Origin: a virus
Length of the DNA stretch: 49,817 nucleotides
Reading direction: 5' to 3' (one strand)
IMG/VR virus record: IMGVR_UViG_3300030329_002542
Coordinates: 1-49,817 of that record
This document shows positions 6,609 through 49,817 of this stretch, in pieces. How positions within the stretch are numbered: position 1 is the first letter of the stretch; every line of letters starts with the position of its first letter. The translations under genes were made by a program, and so were the position numbers. The notes below the pieces were generated by a model. The model was not told where the DNA came from. It was given only the letters and a program-made list of their open reading frames with translations, and did not search any database.

Positions 6609-7563
6609 AACTCACCTCTTTCAAAGTATCTTCACTGACCCATTTTTTTATTGTTTCTATCATAAACTTAATTCGATCATTATAAGTGTGCATTTCTCGT
6701 ACTTTTATATGACCATTCTTTGCTATTTCTTCACGTTCCATAGGATGTTTTAAAGCCCAATCAATCTTCTCAACAGCTTCTTCGGGACTTGTATATCCTA
6801 AGAAATCTTCACCTTCTTTAAATCCTAAACTTTCAATACCGACAACATCAGTGTTTGTAACAAGACAGGTTCCATAACTAAGACATTCAAAAAACCGCAT
6901 GTTTAAATCGTCACGAATAGAAATATTAAATCCCACTCTACCTCTTGCATAACGAACAGCGGCATCCACCATAAAACTACCAAAAGATAACCAACTATTA
7001 GAGAAAGCAGAAAAAACTTTATCTAAGTATTCTATTCGATCATTACCAACTTGCTCACCATCAATAATATGACCACGATTTAAAAATCCAACAAAAACTA
7101 CATCGTGTCTTTTATTAACTCCCCATTGTCCAATTTGTTCTTCTGGTAGTCTAGCAAGTTCTCCGGCAGTAAGATCAACACTTGGTGTGCAAGCAAGAGG
7201 AAGCCAATGAACATTATCAACTCCATCATTCTTCATCTTATCTACAGCTGGAAGTTGAGCAACAAAAACAACATCAAATTTCTTTGCCCACTCTAATCTT
7301 GTATCATAACCTAAGTGCGTATCAACAAGATAACAACACTTTGGCGCATCGCCTTTAGGAAGTTCCATAGGGATGTCATCTCTACCGTCATCCACAAACA
7401 GCCAAAAATCATGCTCTCCATAGTCAACCTCATCGTGAAAAGGTCTAGTGTACCGCTTCATACCTGTGTCAACATAGCCTTCACGAAAGAATGCTTCACT
7501 TATTCTTCTTGCTGTCCCATTATTCCTTATTTCAGCGTTATAGAACAATCCAGGTGATTTCAT
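6601..7563 (-). CDS. Glycosyltransferase, GT-B fold, CgeB-like
   Basis: 320 residues. Two Rossmann-like halves are visible. The C-terminal half has the features of CgeB/GT4-type transferases: HDVVFVGFLNRG near residue 155, and VGFNISIRDDLNMRFFECLSYGTCLVTN, with the acidic sugar-nucleotide-contact region (RFFECLSYG). It would transfer a sugar from an activated nucleotide donor in the host cytoplasm. Its start overlaps the upstream transferase stop as TAATG. Acceptor unknown: virion protein, host surface glycan or modified base are all possible; expression with structural genes favours virion or surface. Family confident, substrate not. Confidence 0.8.
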   Translation of the reverse strand: MKSPGLFYNAEIRNNGTARRISEAFFREGYVDTGMKRYTRPFHDEVDYGEHDFWLFVDDGRDDIPMELPKGDAPKCCYLVDTHLGYDTRLEWAKKFDVVFVAQLPAVDKMKNDGVDNVHWLPLACTPSVDLTAGELARLPEEQIGQWGVNKRHDVVFVGFLNRGHIIDGEQVGNDRIEYLDKVFSAFSNSWLSFGSFMVDAAVRYARGRVGFNISIRDDLNMRFFECLSYGTCLVTNTDVVGIESLGFKEGEDFLGYTSPEEAVEKIDWALKHPMEREEIAKNGHIKVREMHTYNDRIKFMIETIKKWVSEDTLKEVSYG

Positions 7564-8813
7564 TATGCAGCCACCTTTCTTGCTTCTACTCTTATTGCTC
7601 CTGCTTCATCTTCTTCGATATTATCTATTTTAAACCCACAAGTTTCAATTAAGTTCTGGAGTGCGTCTTTATTAAAAGCATGAACATGAGTATAATCAAT
7701 AAGCATAGTAGAAAGCCTATCGTGATTGGGAACAGACAAAAACAACATTCCATCCTCTCTTAATAATCTAAACCATTCTTTCATAGTACGCAAGACATCT
7801 ATTGTGTGTTCTAAAATATGTGTGGCCACGATATAAGATTGACTACCAGCATCAAGAGGTATATCAGCGGCATCTGCAATTAACTCTGCTTTACTGTCTT
7901 TTCCTTGCTGTCCTCCCGCATCTCCTGTTGAGTCATTTATATCAACACCTAAAGCTCCCTCTATTTTCTTGTCACCGCACCCTATATTTAAACCTTGTTC
8001 TCCATCAAATTTTTTAGTAATTTCTTCTAACCATAAATCTTCGCGTGAACTTTCTAACTTATTAACCATAGACTCAATATTTGCCCAACCCATACGAAAA
8101 CAATCATACCACGCCTTTACACCATGTTTCTTTATTATGGCATTATTAGTTAATTCTTGATGCCAACTTGAATCCCAATGACCTTCATGTACTCTACTAC
8201 CTGTCTGTTGTCCAAAGTGATGTAAATAACAACGCTTATCAACACGTAAATCATAACCTGCTTTAGTTAATCTAATGCTTAAATCTAAATCATCACCGCC
8301 AGGTAATGTAGGATCTAATCCACCTAAATCTTTTAAAACATTAGTTCGTATGGCCAAGCAAAAACCAATTAATATAGCAGAATTAAAAACAACACTAGTA
8401 TCCATATACATTAAACTTTGAGCACCAGCAACAAAATTAGAACAGGGGTTAACTGCTCCTACACGACCCTCATTAAAGTTAGAAAGAAGAACACGCCAAA
8501 ACTCTTGTTGATTAGGAATAAAAACTACGTCATCATTTAACATACAAAAATACTCAGTATCACAATCTTCTAAAGCTAAATTAATAGCTCCCATCCAACC
8601 AAGATTTTCTTTAGGTTCTATAACTGTAATAGGTAACTTATTATTAATATTATTACCCATATCTAGTTTAAATTTTACTTCGCCTTTTCCCCCATTATCA
8701 ACTATAATTACATTTAAAGGATACTCAGTATGCTTAAATAAACTTTTAATGCACCATTCTAATTGTTGTAAGTTATTCCACGTTGGAATTGCCACAGTTA
8801 ACAAAGGTTTCAT
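7563..8813 (-). CDS. GT2 glycosyltransferase fused to SAM methyltransferase
   Basis: 416 residues in two domains. Residues 1-235 are a GT-A fold GT2 transferase: AIPTWNN near the start, IIVDNGGKG at 36-44, and the metal-binding acidic motif LNDDVV at 92-97; GGDDLDLSIRLTKAG at 172-186 is the second GT2 signature. Residues about 265-416 are a class I methyltransferase: NIGCGDKK at 276-283, VDIND around 290, ADIPL and HILEH. One polypeptide may add and methylate a sugar, or one domain may act on the product of the other. Translation is coupled to both neighbours through TAATG overlaps. Confidence 0.87.
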   Translation of the reverse strand: MKPLLTVAIPTWNNLQQLEWCIKSLFKHTEYPLNVIIVDNGGKGEVKFKLDMGNNINNKLPITVIEPKENLGWMGAINLALEDCDTEYFCMLNDDVVFIPNQQEFWRVLLSNFNEGRVGAVNPCSNFVAGAQSLMYMDTSVVFNSAILIGFCLAIRTNVLKDLGGLDPTLPGGDDLDLSIRLTKAGYDLRVDKRCYLHHFGQQTGSRVHEGHWDSSWHQELTNNAIIKKHGVKAWYDCFRMGWANIESMVNKLESSREDLWLEEITKKFDGEQGLNIGCGDKKIEGALGVDINDSTGDAGGQQGKDSKAELIADAADIPLDAGSQSYIVATHILEHTIDVLRTMKEWFRLLREDGMLFLSVPNHDRLSTMLIDYTHVHAFNKDALQNLIETCGFKIDNIEEDEAGAIRVEARKVAA

Positions 8814-14895: not shown

Positions 14896-15029
14896 TTTGT
14901 TTTCCTCACTTTAACCTTGACTTTATGTTTAGGCTTAGTTTTCTTTCTTTTTGGCTTACGTTTAGCAAGAGCCACATTAGTTGTACCTGTTAACCCTCCC
15001 CACGTAATATTAGGTGTTGCGTTACTCAT
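14892..15029 (-). CDS. 45-residue basic protein with capsid-like N-terminal motif
   Basis: Start and stop overlap both neighbours (TAATG and ATGA), which supports real translation. The N-terminal half contains ATPNITWGGL, 8 of 10 identical to ASPSITWGGL at residues 6-15 of the major capsid protein, but with different codons. The second half (about 22-45) is almost entirely Lys, Arg, Pro, His and Val. A short capsid-like peptide joined to a DNA-binding-type tail suggests a protein that docks on the shell and touches DNA, but this is inference. I know of no named family. Confidence 0.75.
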   Translation of the reverse strand: MSNATPNITWGGLTGTTNVALAKRKPKRKKTKPKHKVKVKVRKTK

Positions 15030-15454
15030 TAATAGCTCCATATCGTAGGACGTGGAACATGAAAATCATCTTCGCTTGTTATGTTATCTATATGTAAAAA
15101 CCGCCCATCACCCTTTTGCTTAATGCCTATACCTGTAAAGTTAAGACTTAACGCTAGAGATAAAACATCATAAGCCAACTCACGGTCACAAGCAATATCA
15201 ACTGCTTTTCCTGTCGTGTGAGCACCGCCTGGCTTCCCTCCTTTTATTTTAGCTGCTTCTATATGGTGTGTAACATCCCGATATCCAGATGTTATAGTTA
15301 AGGGTTTACCTAACTTACTACGCAACAACTGTAACTTATCCATAAAACCTTCATCAACAAAACAAATGCCTGTTTCCTTGCATTTCATTTCATTAACACT
15401 AAAATTAGGCCAACGATCTTTAGGCCAATCACTTGGATTACTAAATGTTCCCAT
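15029..15454 (-). CDS. Peptidase M15-type endolysin-like protein
   Basis: 141 residues, single M15_3-like domain covering the whole protein. Zinc ligands and catalytic residues visible: ITSGYRDVTHH, GAHTTGKAVDIACD (His and Asp) and FLHIDN (third His). This family cleaves D-Ala or L-Ala-D-Glu bonds in peptidoglycan stems. There is no signal peptide, so it would need a holin if it is the lysis enzyme. It lies between the portal and head genes rather than with the membrane genes at 47-48 kb, so it could instead be a virion-borne wall enzyme. Confidence 0.85.
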   Translation of the reverse strand: MGTFSNPSDWPKDRWPNFSVNEMKCKETGICFVDEGFMDKLQLLRSKLGKPLTITSGYRDVTHHIEAAKIKGGKPGGAHTTGKAVDIACDRELAYDVLSLALSLNFTGIGIKQKGDGRFLHIDNITSEDDFHVPRPTIWSY

Positions 15455-32169: not shown

Positions 32170-32275
32170 AAGTAAGCCAAAGCCACGTAAACCAAAACGA
32201 ACACAGAAGATGCTAGCGGGATTAGATGACCAGCAACTTCATCTTTTACTTAACATGGTAAGGAATGAGAAATGA
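32072..32275 (+). CDS. Small basic protein overlapping two genes
   Basis: 67 residues in a different frame from the end of the previous gene (98-base overlap) and ending in ATGA with the ParB-methyltransferase start. The middle is very basic (SRRRDRSKPKPRKPKRTQKM) between two helices. Translational coupling supports reality; the overlap is unusually long, so moderate confidence. May bind DNA with the methyltransferase. Confidence 0.6.
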   Translation: MMDLVSEQTRLEALSEKDRIELILNVRSRRRDRSKPKPRKPKRTQKMLAGLDDQQLHLLLNMVRNEK

Positions 32276-33642
32276 GTGAAGCAGTAGTTGAGCTAAATAA
32301 TTTACCTGTAAACGCTATTGAGTTTTCAGATAGAGCAAGAGAAAACTATAAAGATTTAGATGTATTAGTTAAAGATATAGAAGAAAAAGGCGTTATCCAA
32401 CCTATAGCCGTTATGCGTAATCCTAATAGCGCAGAACATCATTATAAGTTATTAGCAGGAGGACGGCGCTTTTCTGCTGTTGTTCTATCAGAGTCTACAC
32501 ATATTCCCTGTAGAATTTATCCTGAGACTTTATCAGAACTAGACCAAAAAGAAATAGAGTTAATGGAGAATGTTAGTCGAGATGATTTCGACTGGAAAGA
32601 AGAAGTAGCACTTCGGGACCAAATCCAAAAACTGCAAGAAGAACGTCATGGTAAGCAGGTAGGATCTGGAGGGGGCCATTCGATGCGTGATACCGCTAAA
32701 ATGCTTGGGACAAGTCCTGCTAGTATCAGTAGAGACCTAACATTAGCGCGGGGCTTGGAGGAACATGAAGATGAACTATCTAAAGCAAAAAGCAAAAGTG
32801 AAGCCTTACGGACGCTTAAGAAGATTGAAAGAAAAAAAGAAGAGAAGGCTGTTGCGGAAAATTTGGAAAAGTCTTTGCAGAATGATGGGAGTGAACGCCT
32901 TAAACGATCTTTAACTAATGGATATATAGTTGAAGATTTTTTTGAGGGCGTTGAACGTGTTCCCGATAGAGCTGTTTCTTTTGTTGAGGTAGACCCTCCT
33001 TATGCTATAGCACTTGATAAGATAAAGAGAGGCGCAGAACGAGGAACAAGTCCCGGCATAGAGAACTATAATGAGGTATCATCTGAAGATTACCAAGACT
33101 TTTTGGATCGCTTGTTTGTTGAGTGCTACCGTGTTATGGCTCCTATGTCGTGGATAGTCTGTTGGTATGGAATACAATGGTACCATGTTGTTATGGCAAG
33201 CATGGAAAATGCAGGATTTGAAGTTTGTGACCTTCCAGCTATCTGGACTAAGACAGGCCATCAGGGACAGACAAGAGCTCCAGATGTTAGACTGGGCAAT
33301 GTATATGAGCCTTTCCTTTATGCGCGTAAGGATAAGAGTAGTGTAATAAAGCAACCTGGCAGAACAAATCAATTCAGCTTTAAATCTCTACATCCAGATC
33401 ATAAAATACACCCAACAGAGCGGCCTATTGAAATGATCGAAGAAGTTATAAAAACTTTTAATACACCTGGTGGTCACACTATGGTTCCTTTTCTCGGTAG
33501 TGGTAATACTTTACTAGCTGCAACCAATTTAGGATCAACTTGTTTTGGCTTTGATCTTAGCGAAGAATATAAAAACGCATTTTTAAAGCGGGTGATGGAT
33601 GGGGAGCCCGGGAAATATAAGAGCTATAATGAAATGCAATGA
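32272..33642 (+). CDS. ParB-like domain fused to DNA adenine/cytosine-N4 methyltransferase
   Basis: 456 residues. N-terminal ParB/Srx fold: LLAGGRRF (60-67) and LMENVSRDDF (97-106), then an HTH (SMRDTAKMLGTSPASISRDL, 137-156). A coiled linker (165-205) leads to the methyltransferase: catalytic DPPY at 241-244, IHPTERP at 379-385 and SAM motif FLGSGN at 407-412. The order DPPY then FxGxG is that of beta-class enzymes. No restriction enzyme is nearby, so it likely protects phage DNA or marks sites. ParB domains can bind CTP; the arginine patch GGRR is present. Confidence 0.88.
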   Translation: MSEAVVELNNLPVNAIEFSDRARENYKDLDVLVKDIEEKGVIQPIAVMRNPNSAEHHYKLLAGGRRFSAVVLSESTHIPCRIYPETLSELDQKEIELMENVSRDDFDWKEEVALRDQIQKLQEERHGKQVGSGGGHSMRDTAKMLGTSPASISRDLTLARGLEEHEDELSKAKSKSEALRTLKKIERKKEEKAVAENLEKSLQNDGSERLKRSLTNGYIVEDFFEGVERVPDRAVSFVEVDPPYAIALDKIKRGAERGTSPGIENYNEVSSEDYQDFLDRLFVECYRVMAPMSWIVCWYGIQWYHVVMASMENAGFEVCDLPAIWTKTGHQGQTRAPDVRLGNVYEPFLYARKDKSSVIKQPGRTNQFSFKSLHPDHKIHPTERPIEMIEEVIKTFNTPGGHTMVPFLGSGNTLLAATNLGSTCFGFDLSEEYKNAFLKRVMDGEPGKYKSYNEMQ

Positions 33643-33829
33643 GTGCGGCACTAGACTAAGGGGCGCTGTTAATGCGGATGTCTATGCTTGTTTTAGTTGC
33701 GAGGTTGCATATAGTGGATTAGATGTTCGTGTTATGGCTCGGTGTAAAAGTAAATCAGTCCGTGTAGGTGAGGCGAAAAAGTACTATAAAAAGGTAGGCG
33801 AAAAAATAAAGAAAAGGGAAAACATATGA
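33629..33829 (+). CDS. Zinc-ribbon microprotein
   Basis: 66 residues from ATG 33629, overlapping the methyltransferase end by 14 bases. CNEC and CFSC form a zinc ribbon; basic C-terminus (KKYYKKVGEKIKKRE). Stop overlaps the polymerase start (ATGA). Possible polymerase accessory. Confidence 0.65.
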   Translation: MKCNECGTRLRGAVNADVYACFSCEVAYSGLDVRVMARCKSKSVRVGEAKKYYKKVGEKIKKRENI

Positions 33830-36216
33830 CCGATGCACCTTATGTTGCGGGTAGTCCCTTTGAAAAAATAGCTATTGTGGGGGAATACCCAGGTGCTGAA
33901 GAAGAACGCTGTGGGGGTGCGTTCGTAGGTAAAGCAGGACAACTACTAACTGAACTCTTGCAACATGCAGGTATAAGTAGACAGCAATGTTACTTAGACA
34001 ATGTGTTCCAATTCAGGCCGGCACGAAATGATATAAGCCCGTACTTACGAGTTCAAGAAGGCAAGACCAGAGAGAGCGCTGAGTACCATACTAATCGAGA
34101 ACAACTTCGACAACGATTAGCGGAGAGTAAGGCTAACGTCATTGTTGCTTTGGGTAATGTATCTCTTTACACTTTGACGGGAAAGACTAACGTAACAAAA
34201 CAACGGGGCTCAATTCTTGAAAGCACTTTACTTCCCGGCAAGAAAGTCATTCCTGTAATACACCCAAGCGCTGCCTTACGTGAGTTCTTGTTCCGCTACT
34301 TTATTGTGAACGATTTTCTTAGAGTAAGAAAAGAAAGTGAATTTCCTGAGATGCGCCTTAGGAATCGTCATCTTGTGCTTGAGCCTTCAATGAACGATGT
34401 CGAGCAATTCATAGCTCATTGTCGTACATTAGACCGTATAGCATATGATATTGAAGTTCGTGGTATGGAATTAAGTCATATTGCAATATCGTCTGAGCCT
34501 AATATGAGTGTGTGCATACCTTTTGTTAATGGGCAAATAGACTATTGGAATCCCGAACAAGAAGCTCACGTTATGTGTTTATTAGCGGGTCTGCTTGAAG
34601 ATCCAAAAGTCGAGAAGATAGGACAAAACTTGTCCTTCGATGCGACTTTTCTATATTCAAAGTATAATATTGTAGGCACTCCGTTACAGGACACAATGAT
34701 AGCTGCAGGGATACTCTACCCAGACTTTCCTAAAGGGCTAGATTTTCTTGTTGCTCAGTATTGTGATGGGGAACCTTACTATAAGGATGACGGCAAGGAA
34801 TGGTTCAAGAACCCATTCGGTAGTGAGGAAGTATTCAGGCGATATAATGCTATGGACAGCGCTGTTCTTATGGAAATCTTTCCTAAGCAAGAGGAAGAAC
34901 TAAAGAAGCAAGGTAACTGGGAAGCATATGAGAAACAGCGTTCCCTTCTTCATCCCTTAGTCTACGCAGGTAATAAGGGCATAAGGATGGATACAAAAGC
35001 TATGAGTGAGGCTTCTATGGAGTGCTCACGTAAAATAAGTTCTTATCAAAAACAGCTGAATGAAATAGCGGGAAGAGAACTAAATCCTAATAGCCCTAAA
35101 CAGTTAAAAGAATATTTCTACATAGAAAAGAAACAAAGAGCTTACACAAGAAATGGAAATATAACTGTAGACGATAAGGCGCTTAAGAGGATGAGTGCTA
35201 AGGGAATGAAAGAAGCTGACATAATACTTGAACTGCGTAAAGAGCGTAAGATGCAAGGTACGTATTATGAGATGAAACTTGACGAGGACAACCGTCTACG
35301 TTGCTCTTTCAATCCTGTAGGTACAGCACAAGGACGTATTAGTAGTTCCAAGACAATACGTGGAACTGGTGCTAATCTTCAAAACCAACCATGGCAGATG
35401 AATTCACTGATGCTTGCGGATGAGGGCCATATCTTAATCAATCAAGACTTAGGACAAGCAGAGAACCGTGTAGTTGCTTTTGTTAGCGGAGAGAGTAAGA
35501 TGATGCGAGCCTTTGAAGAGGGCATAGATATTCACACGCAAACAGCTAGTATGATCTATGAAATTCCACCTGAAGCGGTTACTAAAGATCAGAGGGATTG
35601 GGGTAAGCGTGCTAATCACGGACTTAACTATGATCTCGGATACAGAAGTTTTGCTCTTTATTACCAGATTACAGAAAAGGAAGCCAAGAACATTGTAGAA
35701 CGGTATCATCATATTTATAAAGGTGTACGAGAATGGCATTCTACTGTAAGAGAGGAACTGAGCAGAAGTAACAAGACACTGACAAATTGTTTCGGGCGTA
35801 AGAGGACGTTTCTTGATCGCTGGGGACATGATCTATTTAAAGTTGCCTATTCCTACATACCACAGTCTACTATCGCAGAACTAATGAACACATACGGAGT
35901 CTGTTTTCTATATCAACGCCAAGATCTTTTTCCAGAAGTTCAATTTCTTAACACTATTCATGACAGTATTCGCTATCAAATTCCACTTTCAGCGGGTGCT
36001 ACACGCATAATAGAGATTATAAAAACAGTTAAGAAAAGTTTAGAGCATGAGTTAGAATGGAGAGGAAAGACCTTTTCTATTCCTGTTGATACTGAAATAG
36101 GATTCACATTCAACAAGAAGAATATGATTGAGTGGAACGCTAAAAAAGTTGATACTGTAAGTATGAATGATTTATCTGCGGAGCTGGAAAACTATGTCGA
36201 AAAGAGTGCTCAATGA
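33826..36216 (+). CDS. Uracil-DNA glycosylase-like domain fused to family A DNA polymerase
   Basis: 796 residues. Residues 1-165 are UDG superfamily (family 4-like): GEYPGAEEE, GGAFVGKAGQLL, NVFQFRP and VIPVIHPSAA. The N-terminal Cys pair of Fe-S family 4 enzymes is missing. Residues about 200-350 are a 3'-5' exonuclease with Asp208-x-Glu210, Asn268/Asp272 and Tyr340/Asp344, all present. Residues about 375-796 are PolA: motif A with Asp541 (QDLGQAENR), motif B Arg590, Lys594, His598, Tyr602, and motif C HDS at 712-714. His598 stands where E. coli has Phe762. Main replicative polymerase. Similar UDG-polymerase fusion is known from SPO1-type phages. Confidence 0.92.
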   Translation: MTDAPYVAGSPFEKIAIVGEYPGAEEERCGGAFVGKAGQLLTELLQHAGISRQQCYLDNVFQFRPARNDISPYLRVQEGKTRESAEYHTNREQLRQRLAESKANVIVALGNVSLYTLTGKTNVTKQRGSILESTLLPGKKVIPVIHPSAALREFLFRYFIVNDFLRVRKESEFPEMRLRNRHLVLEPSMNDVEQFIAHCRTLDRIAYDIEVRGMELSHIAISSEPNMSVCIPFVNGQIDYWNPEQEAHVMCLLAGLLEDPKVEKIGQNLSFDATFLYSKYNIVGTPLQDTMIAAGILYPDFPKGLDFLVAQYCDGEPYYKDDGKEWFKNPFGSEEVFRRYNAMDSAVLMEIFPKQEEELKKQGNWEAYEKQRSLLHPLVYAGNKGIRMDTKAMSEASMECSRKISSYQKQLNEIAGRELNPNSPKQLKEYFYIEKKQRAYTRNGNITVDDKALKRMSAKGMKEADIILELRKERKMQGTYYEMKLDEDNRLRCSFNPVGTAQGRISSSKTIRGTGANLQNQPWQMNSLMLADEGHILINQDLGQAENRVVAFVSGESKMMRAFEEGIDIHTQTASMIYEIPPEAVTKDQRDWGKRANHGLNYDLGYRSFALYYQITEKEAKNIVERYHHIYKGVREWHSTVREELSRSNKTLTNCFGRKRTFLDRWGHDLFKVAYSYIPQSTIAELMNTYGVCFLYQRQDLFPEVQFLNTIHDSIRYQIPLSAGATRIIEIIKTVKKSLEHELEWRGKTFSIPVDTEIGFTFNKKNMIEWNAKKVDTVSMNDLSAELENYVEKSAQ

Positions 36217-47019: not shown

Positions 47020-47169
47020 TTAAAACAAATCCATAACTGCCGCAACTACATTACCAATGCCTTCTTCTGATACAGTAATACCAATACCGCCTAATAAAGC
47101 GACTAAAAATCCAGCGATAATCTTAACATTCTTTTTAGTCTTACCTTCTTTAAGAAGCTTCTCCTTCAA
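47020..47169 (-). CDS. 49-residue membrane protein, TTG start, holin candidate
   Basis: Not preceded by ATG; TTG at 47167-47169 has GGA 8 bases upstream and overlaps the previous gene by 20 bases. The protein has a basic N-terminus (KEKLLKEGKTKKN) and one hydrophobic segment (VKIIAGFLVALLGGIGITV), then an acidic end. One-span proteins of this size in the late cluster can be class III-type holins or pinholins; the assignment is inference. Confidence 0.55.
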   Translation of the reverse strand: MKEKLLKEGKTKKNVKIIAGFLVALLGGIGITVSEEGIGNVVAAVMDLF

Positions 47170-47344
47170 TTTGTTTTTCCAAAACTTCATCGTTAATTTC
47201 CTTTTTGTTTAAATTTACTTTACCTTCTAATACATCAAGCATTCCTCTAAGGCGTTGCCACTGAGGATCTGCGGTTAGTACTTGAGTTGCCCGTTGTTCT
47301 AATGCTTTTTCCACGACCTGCTTCAACTCATTACTATCTATCAT
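47150..47344 (-). CDS. Small acidic helical protein
   Basis: 64 residues with an AGGAG site. Entirely helical (SNELKQVVEKALEQRATQVL; GMLDVLEGKVNLNKKEINDEVLEKQ). Overlaps the next membrane protein, suggesting a partner, perhaps an antiholin or assembly factor; uncertain. Confidence 0.7.
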   Translation of the reverse strand: MIDSNELKQVVEKALEQRATQVLTADPQWQRLRGMLDVLEGKVNLNKKEINDEVLEKQIEGEAS

Positions 47345-47358
47345 CTTGATATTTCTCC

Positions 47359-47514
47359 TTAATAAGAACTGGGCGTTTTACCCCCCATGCGATTGCCCAG
47401 ATTTGGGCCCTTAGATTTACGTTTAGCTTTAGCCTTGATTTTAGCCTTAGCCTTCTTTGCAGCTGCTTTACCTTTTGCTGTATATGGGTATTTCTTTCCT
47501 CCAACTTTAGGCAT
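47359..47514 (-). CDS. Lys/Ala-rich basic microprotein
   Basis: 51 residues starting MPKVGGKKYPYTAKGKAAAKK, then repeated Lys-Ala pairs, ending NRMGGKTPSSY. ATG overlaps the preceding gene by 8 bases. The VGGKKYPYTAKGK start recurs in many marine phage small proteins as I recall. Probably DNA-condensing or a minor virion protein. Second such basic microprotein in this genome. Confidence 0.7.
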   Translation of the reverse strand: MPKVGGKKYPYTAKGKAAAKKAKAKIKAKAKRKSKGPNLGNRMGGKTPSSY

Positions 47515-47908
47515 CTGATTCCTCCATAGTTGCGAAGTCCAAATCTAACTTATCTAATGGACGTTCAATTTGTAGTGACTTTAACTCACTGTTGGAAACA
47601 TTTAAAAGTGTGCCTCCAACTATATGACCATCTTTTACTTGATACACATAAAATGTGGTACTAGTAATAGCAGTTTTTGATATTCTAGCTGGTCTACGTT
47701 TTCCACCCACTTGAATATAACACGTTTGATTCTCGTCATATTTACTTCCTAAAAAGACCGTAGCTCCGGCCAGAATATTTTCAATAGTATTACGTAAAAA
47801 CAGCAAAGCCAATCCAACAATAAACCAGAAGCTATATTGTTCTATTAATACTCCTAATCCTGATTGCTCAGAAAATTTGGATATGGCTTCAGCTGCTTCT
47901 GTTTCCAT
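47507..47908 (-). CDS. Minimal MscS-like membrane protein
   Basis: 133 residues. Residues about 24-46 (SFWFIVGLALLFLRN) begin a hydrophobic helix that continues as amphipathic NTIENILAGATVFLG, matching the pore helix of MscS. Residues about 56-116 resemble its beta domain: CYIQVGGKRRPARISKTAITSTTFYVY, DGHIVGG and LLNVSNSELKSLQIE, the last corresponding to the 'IPN(S/G)xL' segment. The two other transmembrane helices and the alpha/beta domain of MscS are absent. In a lysis cassette it may form a pore or sense membrane tension. TAATG coupling to the gene upstream. Confidence 0.6.
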   Translation of the reverse strand: METEAAEAISKFSEQSGLGVLIEQYSFWFIVGLALLFLRNTIENILAGATVFLGSKYDENQTCYIQVGGKRRPARISKTAITSTTFYVYQVKDGHIVGGTLLNVSNSELKSLQIERPLDKLDLDFATMEESDA

Positions 47909-48345
47909 TATGACTTATTAGTTGCCTTATATACTTCAGCAAATAATACAGTAACTATCCAAACCATTGCACCATAAACTGCTTCGTGTTCCCAAAACAA
48001 CTGCCATTTCTTATCAGCTCCATTACGAGCAAAAGGAAAACCGATTGTATGCCACAGCTGATACAGAATTGTTATACATATAGCTGCTCCCCCACTCCAT
48101 GCAGCAGCCTTCTTCGATTCATCGGCGGCTTTTTGTCGTCTACTCAAAGTAACCAGAGACCGTTTAGCAGATTTGAGTTCGCCCTTCAGATCATCGCGGT
48201 CATGCTTGTATTCTTTAGCCACAATGTTTTCGTTGCTCACCTGTTGACGCAGATGTTCAATCTCTTTAACGGCCTCAACATAGAGCCTTCTCTGTCTCTC
48301 TGCGGAGGGTATCTGCTCTGGAGGTGGATATTTTACCGGAGACAT
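47908..48345 (-). CDS. Coiled-coil protein with two membrane spans
   Basis: 145 residues. Residues 14-75 are a coiled coil (AVKEIEHLRQQVSNENIV; LKGELKSAKRSLVTLSRRQ). Two spans: about 80-103 (AAAWSGGAAICITILYQLWH) and 121-140 (AVYGAMVWIVTVLFAEVYKA). Candidate holin or membrane-associated lysis regulator. Directly followed by the MscS-like gene through TAATG. Confidence 0.7.
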   Translation of the reverse strand: MSPVKYPPPEQIPSAERQRRLYVEAVKEIEHLRQQVSNENIVAKEYKHDRDDLKGELKSAKRSLVTLSRRQKAADESKKAAAWSGGAAICITILYQLWHTIGFPFARNGADKKWQLFWEHEAVYGAMVWIVTVLFAEVYKATNKS

Positions 48346-48347
48346 CT

Positions 48348-48662
48348 TTAGCTACCTATTGTAGGCTTGGTTTCTGGAAAGTCATCTGTAGCGGGCCAAT
48401 TACGCAATGCGACCCTATAGGCCATTATCGCAGTATGCTCTGGATGGTCTGTCACTGTTACGAACTTATCTGTGCGATTGAGTTCACCATCTCGCCACAA
48501 ACGAGCCTCAAATCTGGCAGTTTCGGCTTTTATCTCTTCCGATTCTTGCGGCACAGGTATTAATTCATAACTACCTCCACCTGCGACTATTCGTGCCATT
48601 TCTTCCGTTGCAACAATATTACCTGTCGTGCCATCTTCATAAGTTATTTTGTAATCTGCCAT
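48348..48662 (-). CDS. Tail fibre assembly chaperone-like protein
   Basis: 104 residues directly after the adhesin gene. The C-terminal half, RFEARLWRDGELNRTDKFVT then YRVALRNWPATDDFP and a Pro-rich end, has the (R/W)-R-D-x-L-x-x-T-D and YR-x-ALR-x-WP signature of phage tail assembly chaperones (Phage_tail_APC type). It would help fold or attach the fibre or adhesin. Confidence 0.75.
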   Translation of the reverse strand: MADYKITYEDGTTGNIVATEEMARIVAGGGSYELIPVPQESEEIKAETARFEARLWRDGELNRTDKFVTVTDHPEHTAIMAYRVALRNWPATDDFPETKPTIGS

Positions 48663-48666
48663 TTCA

Positions 48667-49722
48667 TTACCCCATTGACGTTGGAAAAATTAAGACAACC
48701 CCTGCTCCACCTTTTGCAGTGAAACACCTGCCTGATGAATCCGTTGTGCGTGTAGCTCCAGAACCTGCACCCATAGACACCCTTGATCCGTAGCTCCACT
48801 CAAAAGCATCCGCTACAACCGTACCTCTGCCTCCCTCAAATGGGCCAGTGGTTTGTCCCACGTAGGTCCCATTACCTCTACTTTGGGCAGTGTCAAAACG
48901 GTAATTTGCGCCACCGTTCATAATTTGACCTGCATGGTACTTGTTTGTAATGTTCGCATACTGACTTGGACTTCCCAAATCAGGCCCATTATAAGTGGTA
49001 TTCTGATGCTCATCATAAGAAAATAACTCAGGGAACGGAGCCAATAATACAGGTATGTCTTTCGATTGGGCTGTACCCATATTATCCATAGAGCCTTTTT
49101 CTTCGGTAGCATAAACACCAACTTCTTGGTATTGATTTAGCGCACCACCAAAACTATGCTCTACAACACTTGATGTGGACGCACCTGTTATACCTGCTTG
49201 ACCTGCACTACCAGTCATCCATAGTCCTGTAGCACCACCTCCACTAGCTTGTTTTGTACTAGCACAAGCTCCACCTGCACCTCCTGTATAGTTAGCTATG
49301 GTTCCTCCACTCGCTGAACCACCTGTACCACCAGAACAACCTGCACCTGACCCAATAGCCCCTGCTCCACCACCATTGCCTGTCATAAAAGTGGAACCAC
49401 CTACAGCAATCGTGGTGTTACCACCTGCATTACCTGCAGATGCAGCAGCAGCAGTAATGACCCCCCTACTTGCACCCCCTGCGCCGATTGTTATGGTGTA
49501 AGCGGTTGATCCCAAAAAGGTATACCTACTAACGGCTGTTCCACCAGCACCCCCACCTGATGCCGAGTAGTCTACATCTCGATTGGAATGTGCGCCTGAT
49601 CCACCTGCGCCAATGCAATAAACTATAGCTTCAACATTACAACTTGGTGTCCATGTAGTGGTTGCAGAAAACATAATGTTCGGCAATCCTGTGTCGCCAC
49701 CCTTTTGTCCTAATATCGCCAT
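48667..49722 (-). CDS. Glycine-rich tail adhesin
   Basis: 351 residues, ATG after AAAAGGAG. Residues about 35-190 are Gly/Ala/Ser-rich with repeated GGGAGG, GAGGAS and GGSAS clusters, like polyglycine-II adhesin tips. Residues 195-270 have longer loops (YQEVGVYATEEKGSMDNMG). The end (GGAGVVLIFPTSMG) is typical of glycine-rich phage tail proteins. Cys24 and Cys32 flank the first strand. Probably the receptor-binding tip. The same gene start is found at the left window edge with mostly silent changes. Confidence 0.8.
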   Translation of the reverse strand: MAILGQKGGDTGLPNIMFSATTTWTPSCNVEAIVYCIGAGGSGAHSNRDVDYSASGGGAGGTAVSRYTFLGSTAYTITIGAGGASRGVITAAAASAGNAGGNTTIAVGGSTFMTGNGGGAGAIGSGAGCSGGTGGSASGGTIANYTGGAGGACASTKQASGGGATGLWMTGSAGQAGITGASTSSVVEHSFGGALNQYQEVGVYATEEKGSMDNMGTAQSKDIPVLLAPFPELFSYDEHQNTTYNGPDLGSPSQYANITNKYHAGQIMNGGANYRFDTAQSRGNGTYVGQTTGPFEGGRGTVVADAFEWSYGSRVSMGAGSGATRTTDSSGRCFTAKGGAGVVLIFPTSMG

Positions 49723-49817
49723 TAAAAAAATCTCCTTTTATAAGCTCATCCAGCTATCAATCGTGCCATCTACAAAAACCAACTGTACCGCGTTGCCTTT
49801 GGGCAGTGTTCCATCAG
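49340..49817. repeat. Right contig-end homology block
   Basis: Collinear with 1-478 with no gaps; about 43 hand-counted differences, clustered at third codon positions. The first 60 and the last 58 bases are identical or nearly so. Confidence 0.9.
49738..49817 (-). CDS. Tail fibre protein, C-terminal fragment (cut by window edge)
   Basis: The last 26 codons of a gene matching the end of the fibre at 399-2828; protein identical over the visible part (ends DSWMSL). One serine uses AGC instead of TCT, a two-base silent change. Continues beyond the window; probably an allele of the complete fibre gene. Confidence 0.85.
   Translation of the reverse strand, partial: DGTLPKGNAVQLVFVDGTIDSWMSL

Follow-up and report, generated by a model that had tools for sequence, protein, structure and literature searches.

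A single-helix relative of the MscS mechanosensitive channel encoded by uncultured phages

Uncultured phages encode a small protein that we regard, with very little doubt, as a genuine, if severely truncated, member of the MscS superfamily. The explanation that we favour, at a probability of roughly 0.5, is that this homologue forms a ring of the MscS type around a conducting pore. The gene was found in the window, by which we mean the whole 49,817-base stretch of DNA analysed, a complete IMG/VR record (IMGVR_UViG_3300030329_002542) of an uncultured virus of bacteria. The ends of the window overlap by 478 bases, which makes it probable that the genome is nearly complete and either circular or terminally redundant. 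The two terminal copies (1-478 and 49340-49817) are 91% identical, and their differences reflect either a strain mixture or real terminal variation. Reading leftward from position 49,722, the genes encode a Gly-rich fibre, a fibre chaperone, a two-span coiled-coil protein, the MscS-like protein and three small products, beyond which come three genes for very large proteins (687-1272 aa) that matched no family. The features discussed below are as follows.

48348-48662, minus strand: upstream gene, tail fibre assembly chaperone-like protein (PF16778, E 1e-7, and a PHROG tail fibre assembly match)
47908-48345, minus strand: coiled-coil protein, apparently with two membrane spans in its C-terminal part, a conserved partner gene by its adjacency in relatives
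47507-47908, minus strand: MscS-like protein, 133 aa, ATG start, whose homologues pass the PF00924 cut-off; N-terminal helix at residues 2-15, membrane helix running into a TM3b-like stretch at 18-53, beta domain at 62-105, short helix at 106-111
47359-47514, minus strand: small lysine-rich protein, 51 aa, with a weak match to PHROG 33179, function not known
47150-47344, minus strand: small helical protein, 64 aa, with counterparts in related modules (similar by eye to L175 8390-8593)
47020-47190, minus strand: small protein, 56 aa, with one predicted membrane span, a conventional holin candidate
15029-15454, minus strand: M15 peptidase, endolysin-like, with no obvious N-terminal signal (PHROG 894 endolysin, E 6e-24; PF08291)

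The earlier note on this DNA had placed the gene between a two-span protein on one side and small late genes on the other, and this setting holds; the strand, which the note did not state, is the minus strand. The stop codon of the two-span gene and the start codon of the MscS-like gene overlap as TAATG, and the start of the 51-aa lysine-rich gene overlaps the end of the MscS-like gene. Two related contigs (L030 7871-8038 and L031 791-958) carry a small Arg/Lys-rich open reading frame in a gap between the two-span and MscS-like genes, a gap that the window lacks. Elsewhere in the window we noted three composite proteins: a DNA polymerase A with an N-terminal fusion to a uracil-DNA-glycosylase family domain (33826-36216; PF03167, E 7e-21), a single protein combining a glycosyltransferase family 2 domain with a methyltransferase domain (7563-8813), and a fusion, recognised by eye, of a ParB-like N-terminal part to a DNA methyltransferase-like part (32272-33642).

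The 133-aa open reading frame is a genuine gene, beyond chance. Proteins 70-95% identical to its product are encoded on 26 IMG/VR contigs, and in all 26 the gene is adjoined by the two-span gene, whose product is 54-92% identical; the same adjacency was seen in further loci. Codon comparisons indicate that strong purifying selection acts on the MscS-like gene: the third codon position diverges most among close relatives, and dN/dS is ~0.06-0.3 where dS could be estimated.

Neither the window protein nor its close relatives gave anything useful in direct sequence searches of Pfam, PHROGs and PDB, and PDB profile searches with deeper alignments of the family gave no match either. The wider family was reached through the neighbouring gene: a search with the two-span protein led to contigs whose next gene encoded a 40%-identical version of the MscS-like protein. 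From there the family opened to 95 IMG/VR matches, of which 80 were kept, and it is now known from more than 100 IMG/VR phage contigs, with members of ~100-147 aa. The more distant members are connected by links that are each strong: the window protein is 41% identical to L075 over 132 aa and 46% identical to L092 over 109 aa, and L075 and L092 share 50% identity over 108 aa. The best match of the window protein in BFVD was a 138-aa viral protein at 52% identity. T4-type Gp23 capsid genes were present on 6 of 20 sampled family contigs, and a T4-type capsid gene is also carried by the 168-kb phage that encodes the L092 protein. The family recurs across unrelated uncultured phages, yet when three of its clades were searched by tblastn against 50,697 phage records, no relative turned up.

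Two family matches came from bacterial genome bins, one from a Gemmatimonadetes bin (L175) and the other from a phage-like contig in a Pelagibacter bin (L176). In the former, an integrase-like gene lies beside the same small-gene module, made up of two-span, MscS-like, coiled-coil and one-span genes (6632-8720), and the locus is apparently a prophage remnant. One phage contig carries two diverged MscS-like genes ~360 bases apart (L118 5001-5345 and 5709-6035), the second with a canonical IPN motif. Since this tandem pair occurs in a single contig, we do not propose heteromers as a general feature of the family.

The relationship to MscS had originally been recognised by eye, and it was borne out by sequence profile, by profile-profile alignment and by fold search; every motif that the earlier note had cited is present in the open reading frame. 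The window protein alone has no Pfam match, and PF00924, the MscS beta domain, found nothing when searched against the window record, so that membership rests on its relatives. Three of them score above the curated Pfam cut-off of 20.2 bits: L092 (26.9 bits, E 5.3e-6), L095 (23.5 bits) and L118 5709-6035 (24.1 bits, covering profile positions 1-59 of 68). Across the family PF00924 was the most frequent Pfam match, found in 45 of 62 members at E<=1.

Profile-profile alignment agreed with these matches. When the 62-sequence family profile was aligned to 13 cellular MscS proteins with hhalign, the scores were 34-36, as against a mean of ~13.7 and a maximum of 26.6 for 400 column shuffles. The alignment comprises 52 columns over TM3b and the first strands, and is gapless with L109-based profiles. 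Even a shallow profile of close relatives scored 27.2 against MscS, a value reached by none of 800 shuffles. Among 109 real proteins or clusters used as controls, one exceeded 23, and this was the second MscS-like protein of the tandem pair (L118 5709-6035), with its canonical IPN motif. At the level of residues, the phage family and E. coli MscS have in common the glycine in TM3b, the threonine within the STT stretch and the IPN asparagine; at the last of these sites some phage members have IPN, VPN or LPN, and the window protein has VSN. Overall, homology to MscS is stronger over the beta domain and TM3b, and weaker over TM3a.

An unrelated SH3-like beta barrel on a phage membrane protein, with no more than a resemblance to MscS, is an alternative account; small barrels are common, and NifZ was matched weakly by 21 family members. 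We consider this very improbable, since the match to PF00924 (profile positions 1-59) takes in the TM3b helix together with its junction, several members exceed the Pfam cut-off, and both shuffled and real controls score far lower.

Structure prediction points the same way. A first AlphaFold model of the window protein, built from a shallow alignment, was weak (pLDDT 62.6), and a deeper alignment was therefore assembled through the neighbouring two-span gene. The resulting template-free model is of moderate confidence (mean pLDDT 76.1, pTM 0.48) and contains helices at residues 2-15 and 18-53, followed by four strands (62-67, 70-79, 83-92 and 95-105). In a Foldseek search of 350,542 PDB chains, its top five matches were E. 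coli MscS (probability 1.00, E ~0.003, 91 columns, rmsd 4.7 A), and the next were Trypanosoma cruzi MscS (probability 1.00) and YnaI. The list also holds Tudor and ribosomal SH3-like domains, which speaks for the SH3-like alternative; however, MscS led the PDB searches with both models, the shallow one at a probability of 0.97. No Foldseek match passes E 0.001, and we thus take the fold search as support for the sequence evidence, which it accompanies rather than replaces.

The protein is a much reduced MscS. Hydropathy and the AlphaFold model together confirm the build proposed for it, one membrane helix and a beta domain within 133 residues: the Kyte-Doolittle scale marks a single hydrophobic segment at residues 18-38, within the modelled helix 18-53, and those relatives that were read also have one apparent membrane helix. 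The phage proteins retain an N-terminal helix, TM3 as their single pore-like helix, and the beta domain. They lack TM1, TM2 and the C-terminal alpha/beta cage, and the chain ends shortly after the beta domain. Where canonical MscS proteins have at least two to three membrane helices, the window protein has one.

How such a protein might act can be outlined by analogy with MscS. As in MscS proteins, the beta domains would hold the subunits together as a ring, placed in the inner membrane of the host, and the single helices would surround a central opening. Its acidic N-terminus would lie outside and the Arg/Lys residues that follow the helix inside, as for MscS TM3. Judging from the position of the gene, it would be made late, from the structural operon. 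Upon stretch or disturbance of the membrane the ring would leak ions or small solutes, and in the final phase the phage would thereby adjust the infected cell's turgor or membrane potential. By this analogy, ring assembly is probable, and a conducting pore may be given about even odds. As its role, we tentatively suggest that it controls the osmotic or ionic state of the infected cell at a late stage. With similar reserve, we suggest that a single-helix MscS is common to several lineages of uncultured phages and acts as a tension- or voltage-responsive pore controlling turgor or the time of lysis.

Several observations speak against a channel. TM2 is absent, although even T. cruzi MscS keeps it, and the gene contexts in other lineages point to no one function. 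There, the neighbours of the MscS-like gene include tail fibre and structural genes, a P22-like portal, ribonucleotide reductase, a zeta-toxin-like kinase and outer-membrane-like proteins. The kinase gene lies immediately upstream of the MscS-like gene in six loci (for example, L092 5142-5918; PF06414, E 2e-11). Such varied neighbours would fit an auxiliary function, and the beta domain might instead serve as a membrane-anchored ring or adaptor that conducts nothing, or might co-assemble with host MscS-type channels and change or block them. TM3 and the beta domain are all that is left of the channel, and the membrane helix is bulkier than the glycine/alanine-rich TM3 of MscS. Conservation along it has no significant helical periodicity, and we thus neither demonstrate nor claim a pore-lining or packing face. 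We nevertheless hold a non-conducting protein to be rather unlikely, as different lineages jointly conserve the TM3-like helix and the junction that leads from it into the beta domain, including Gly48, Phe52 and Gly54. A conducting MscS-type ring remains our preferred reading.

The earlier note had assigned the gene to a lysis cassette, and this label did not stand. No lysis enzyme adjoins the gene, so the label interprets the locus and does not describe anything observed there. The M15 peptidase, ~17 kb away across the joined ends, is the one enzyme of a lysis type that could be recognised in the window. The peptidase is present in the records of 7 of 11 relatives, in all seven on the same strand as the MscS-like gene and 13-24 kb from it in contig coordinates. 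In other lineages the neighbours differ, and no lysis family appeared in the best 25 of 60 PHROG matches of 90 neighbour proteins.

In a further alternative, the protein is a holin or a part of lysis timing: its ring, alone or together with the two-span and one-span (47020-47190) proteins, would open the inner membrane for a cytoplasmic M15 peptidase. No signal peptide is obvious in the peptidase. When the late region of the window was scanned for hydropathy, the MscS-like gene cluster alone yielded small membrane proteins (the two-span protein fell below the threshold of the scan, and its spans were recognised by eye). Any holin of this phage is therefore probably one of the two-span, MscS-like and one-span proteins. 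The two-span and MscS-like genes are strictly linked in close relatives, where the downstream small membrane protein also has a counterpart. Yet the endolysin is not adjacent, either here or in the seven relatives, lysis families are missing from the best 25 PHROG matches of the neighbours in other lineages, and either of the neighbouring membrane proteins is a more conventional candidate for a holin; the downstream protein of one relative matches a holin at E 0.5 only. A holin function therefore appears unlikely to us. Separately, we considered the two-span neighbour as an Rz-like spanin, and rejected this because its coiled-coil matches were weak (E 0.28-0.32) and judged to be chance. The MscS-like protein may serve in lysis timing or osmotic balance, the roles that the earlier note had raised.

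If the MscS-type ring with a conducting pore is correct, a mechanosensitive channel has been reduced to one helix and one small domain, and the least that is needed for sensing membrane tension becomes directly testable. Osmotic control would be added to the known functions of phage accessory genes. Should the pore control turgor or the time of lysis, the end of the lytic cycle would gain a new mechanism, carried out by a minimal form of mechanosensitive channel.

Phage holins and pinholins are small late membrane proteins. The MscS-like protein resembles them in this respect, but it has no holin family match and is not beside an endolysin. Viral relatives of mechanosensitive channels have been reported before, and what is new here is the single-helix phage branch of MscS, of which we found no description in the open-access literature searched, a search that was not complete. 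In 2022, gp51 of the isolated phage PANV1 (Paraglaciecola Antarctic GD virus 1) was described with an HHpred match to mechanosensitive channels and a single, weakly predicted and doubtful membrane helix; by this description it may be similar to the phage family (PMC9239159). Large eukaryotic viruses encode MscS-like and MscL-like proteins whose function is not known; in contrast to the phage form, their MscS-like protein has three predicted membrane helices, and their small proteins (101 aa) resemble MscL (PMC6163359). MscL-type genes have been reported in estuarine phages (PMC13288924).

Among cellular channels, E. coli MscS (PF00924; PDB 2vv5, 5aji) shares with the phage protein the TM3b helix, the beta domain and the Gly, Thr and Asn positions. 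It has three membrane helices and an alpha/beta cage in 286 aa, whereas the phage form has one helix and no cage in ~100-147 aa. Another parallel is the 'miniature MscS' of T. cruzi (PDB 9bgq), the smallest characterised MscS channel, which is heptameric, has a conductance of ~478 pS, and demonstrates that TM2, TM3 and the beta domain still conduct without the cage (PMC12334622). Like the phage protein, it has an N-terminal helix, TM3 and a beta domain, and lacks the alpha/beta cage. It differs in keeping TM2, which the phage protein lacks, and in having been shown to conduct. In size, the phage form falls below even this smallest MscS-type channel of known activity.
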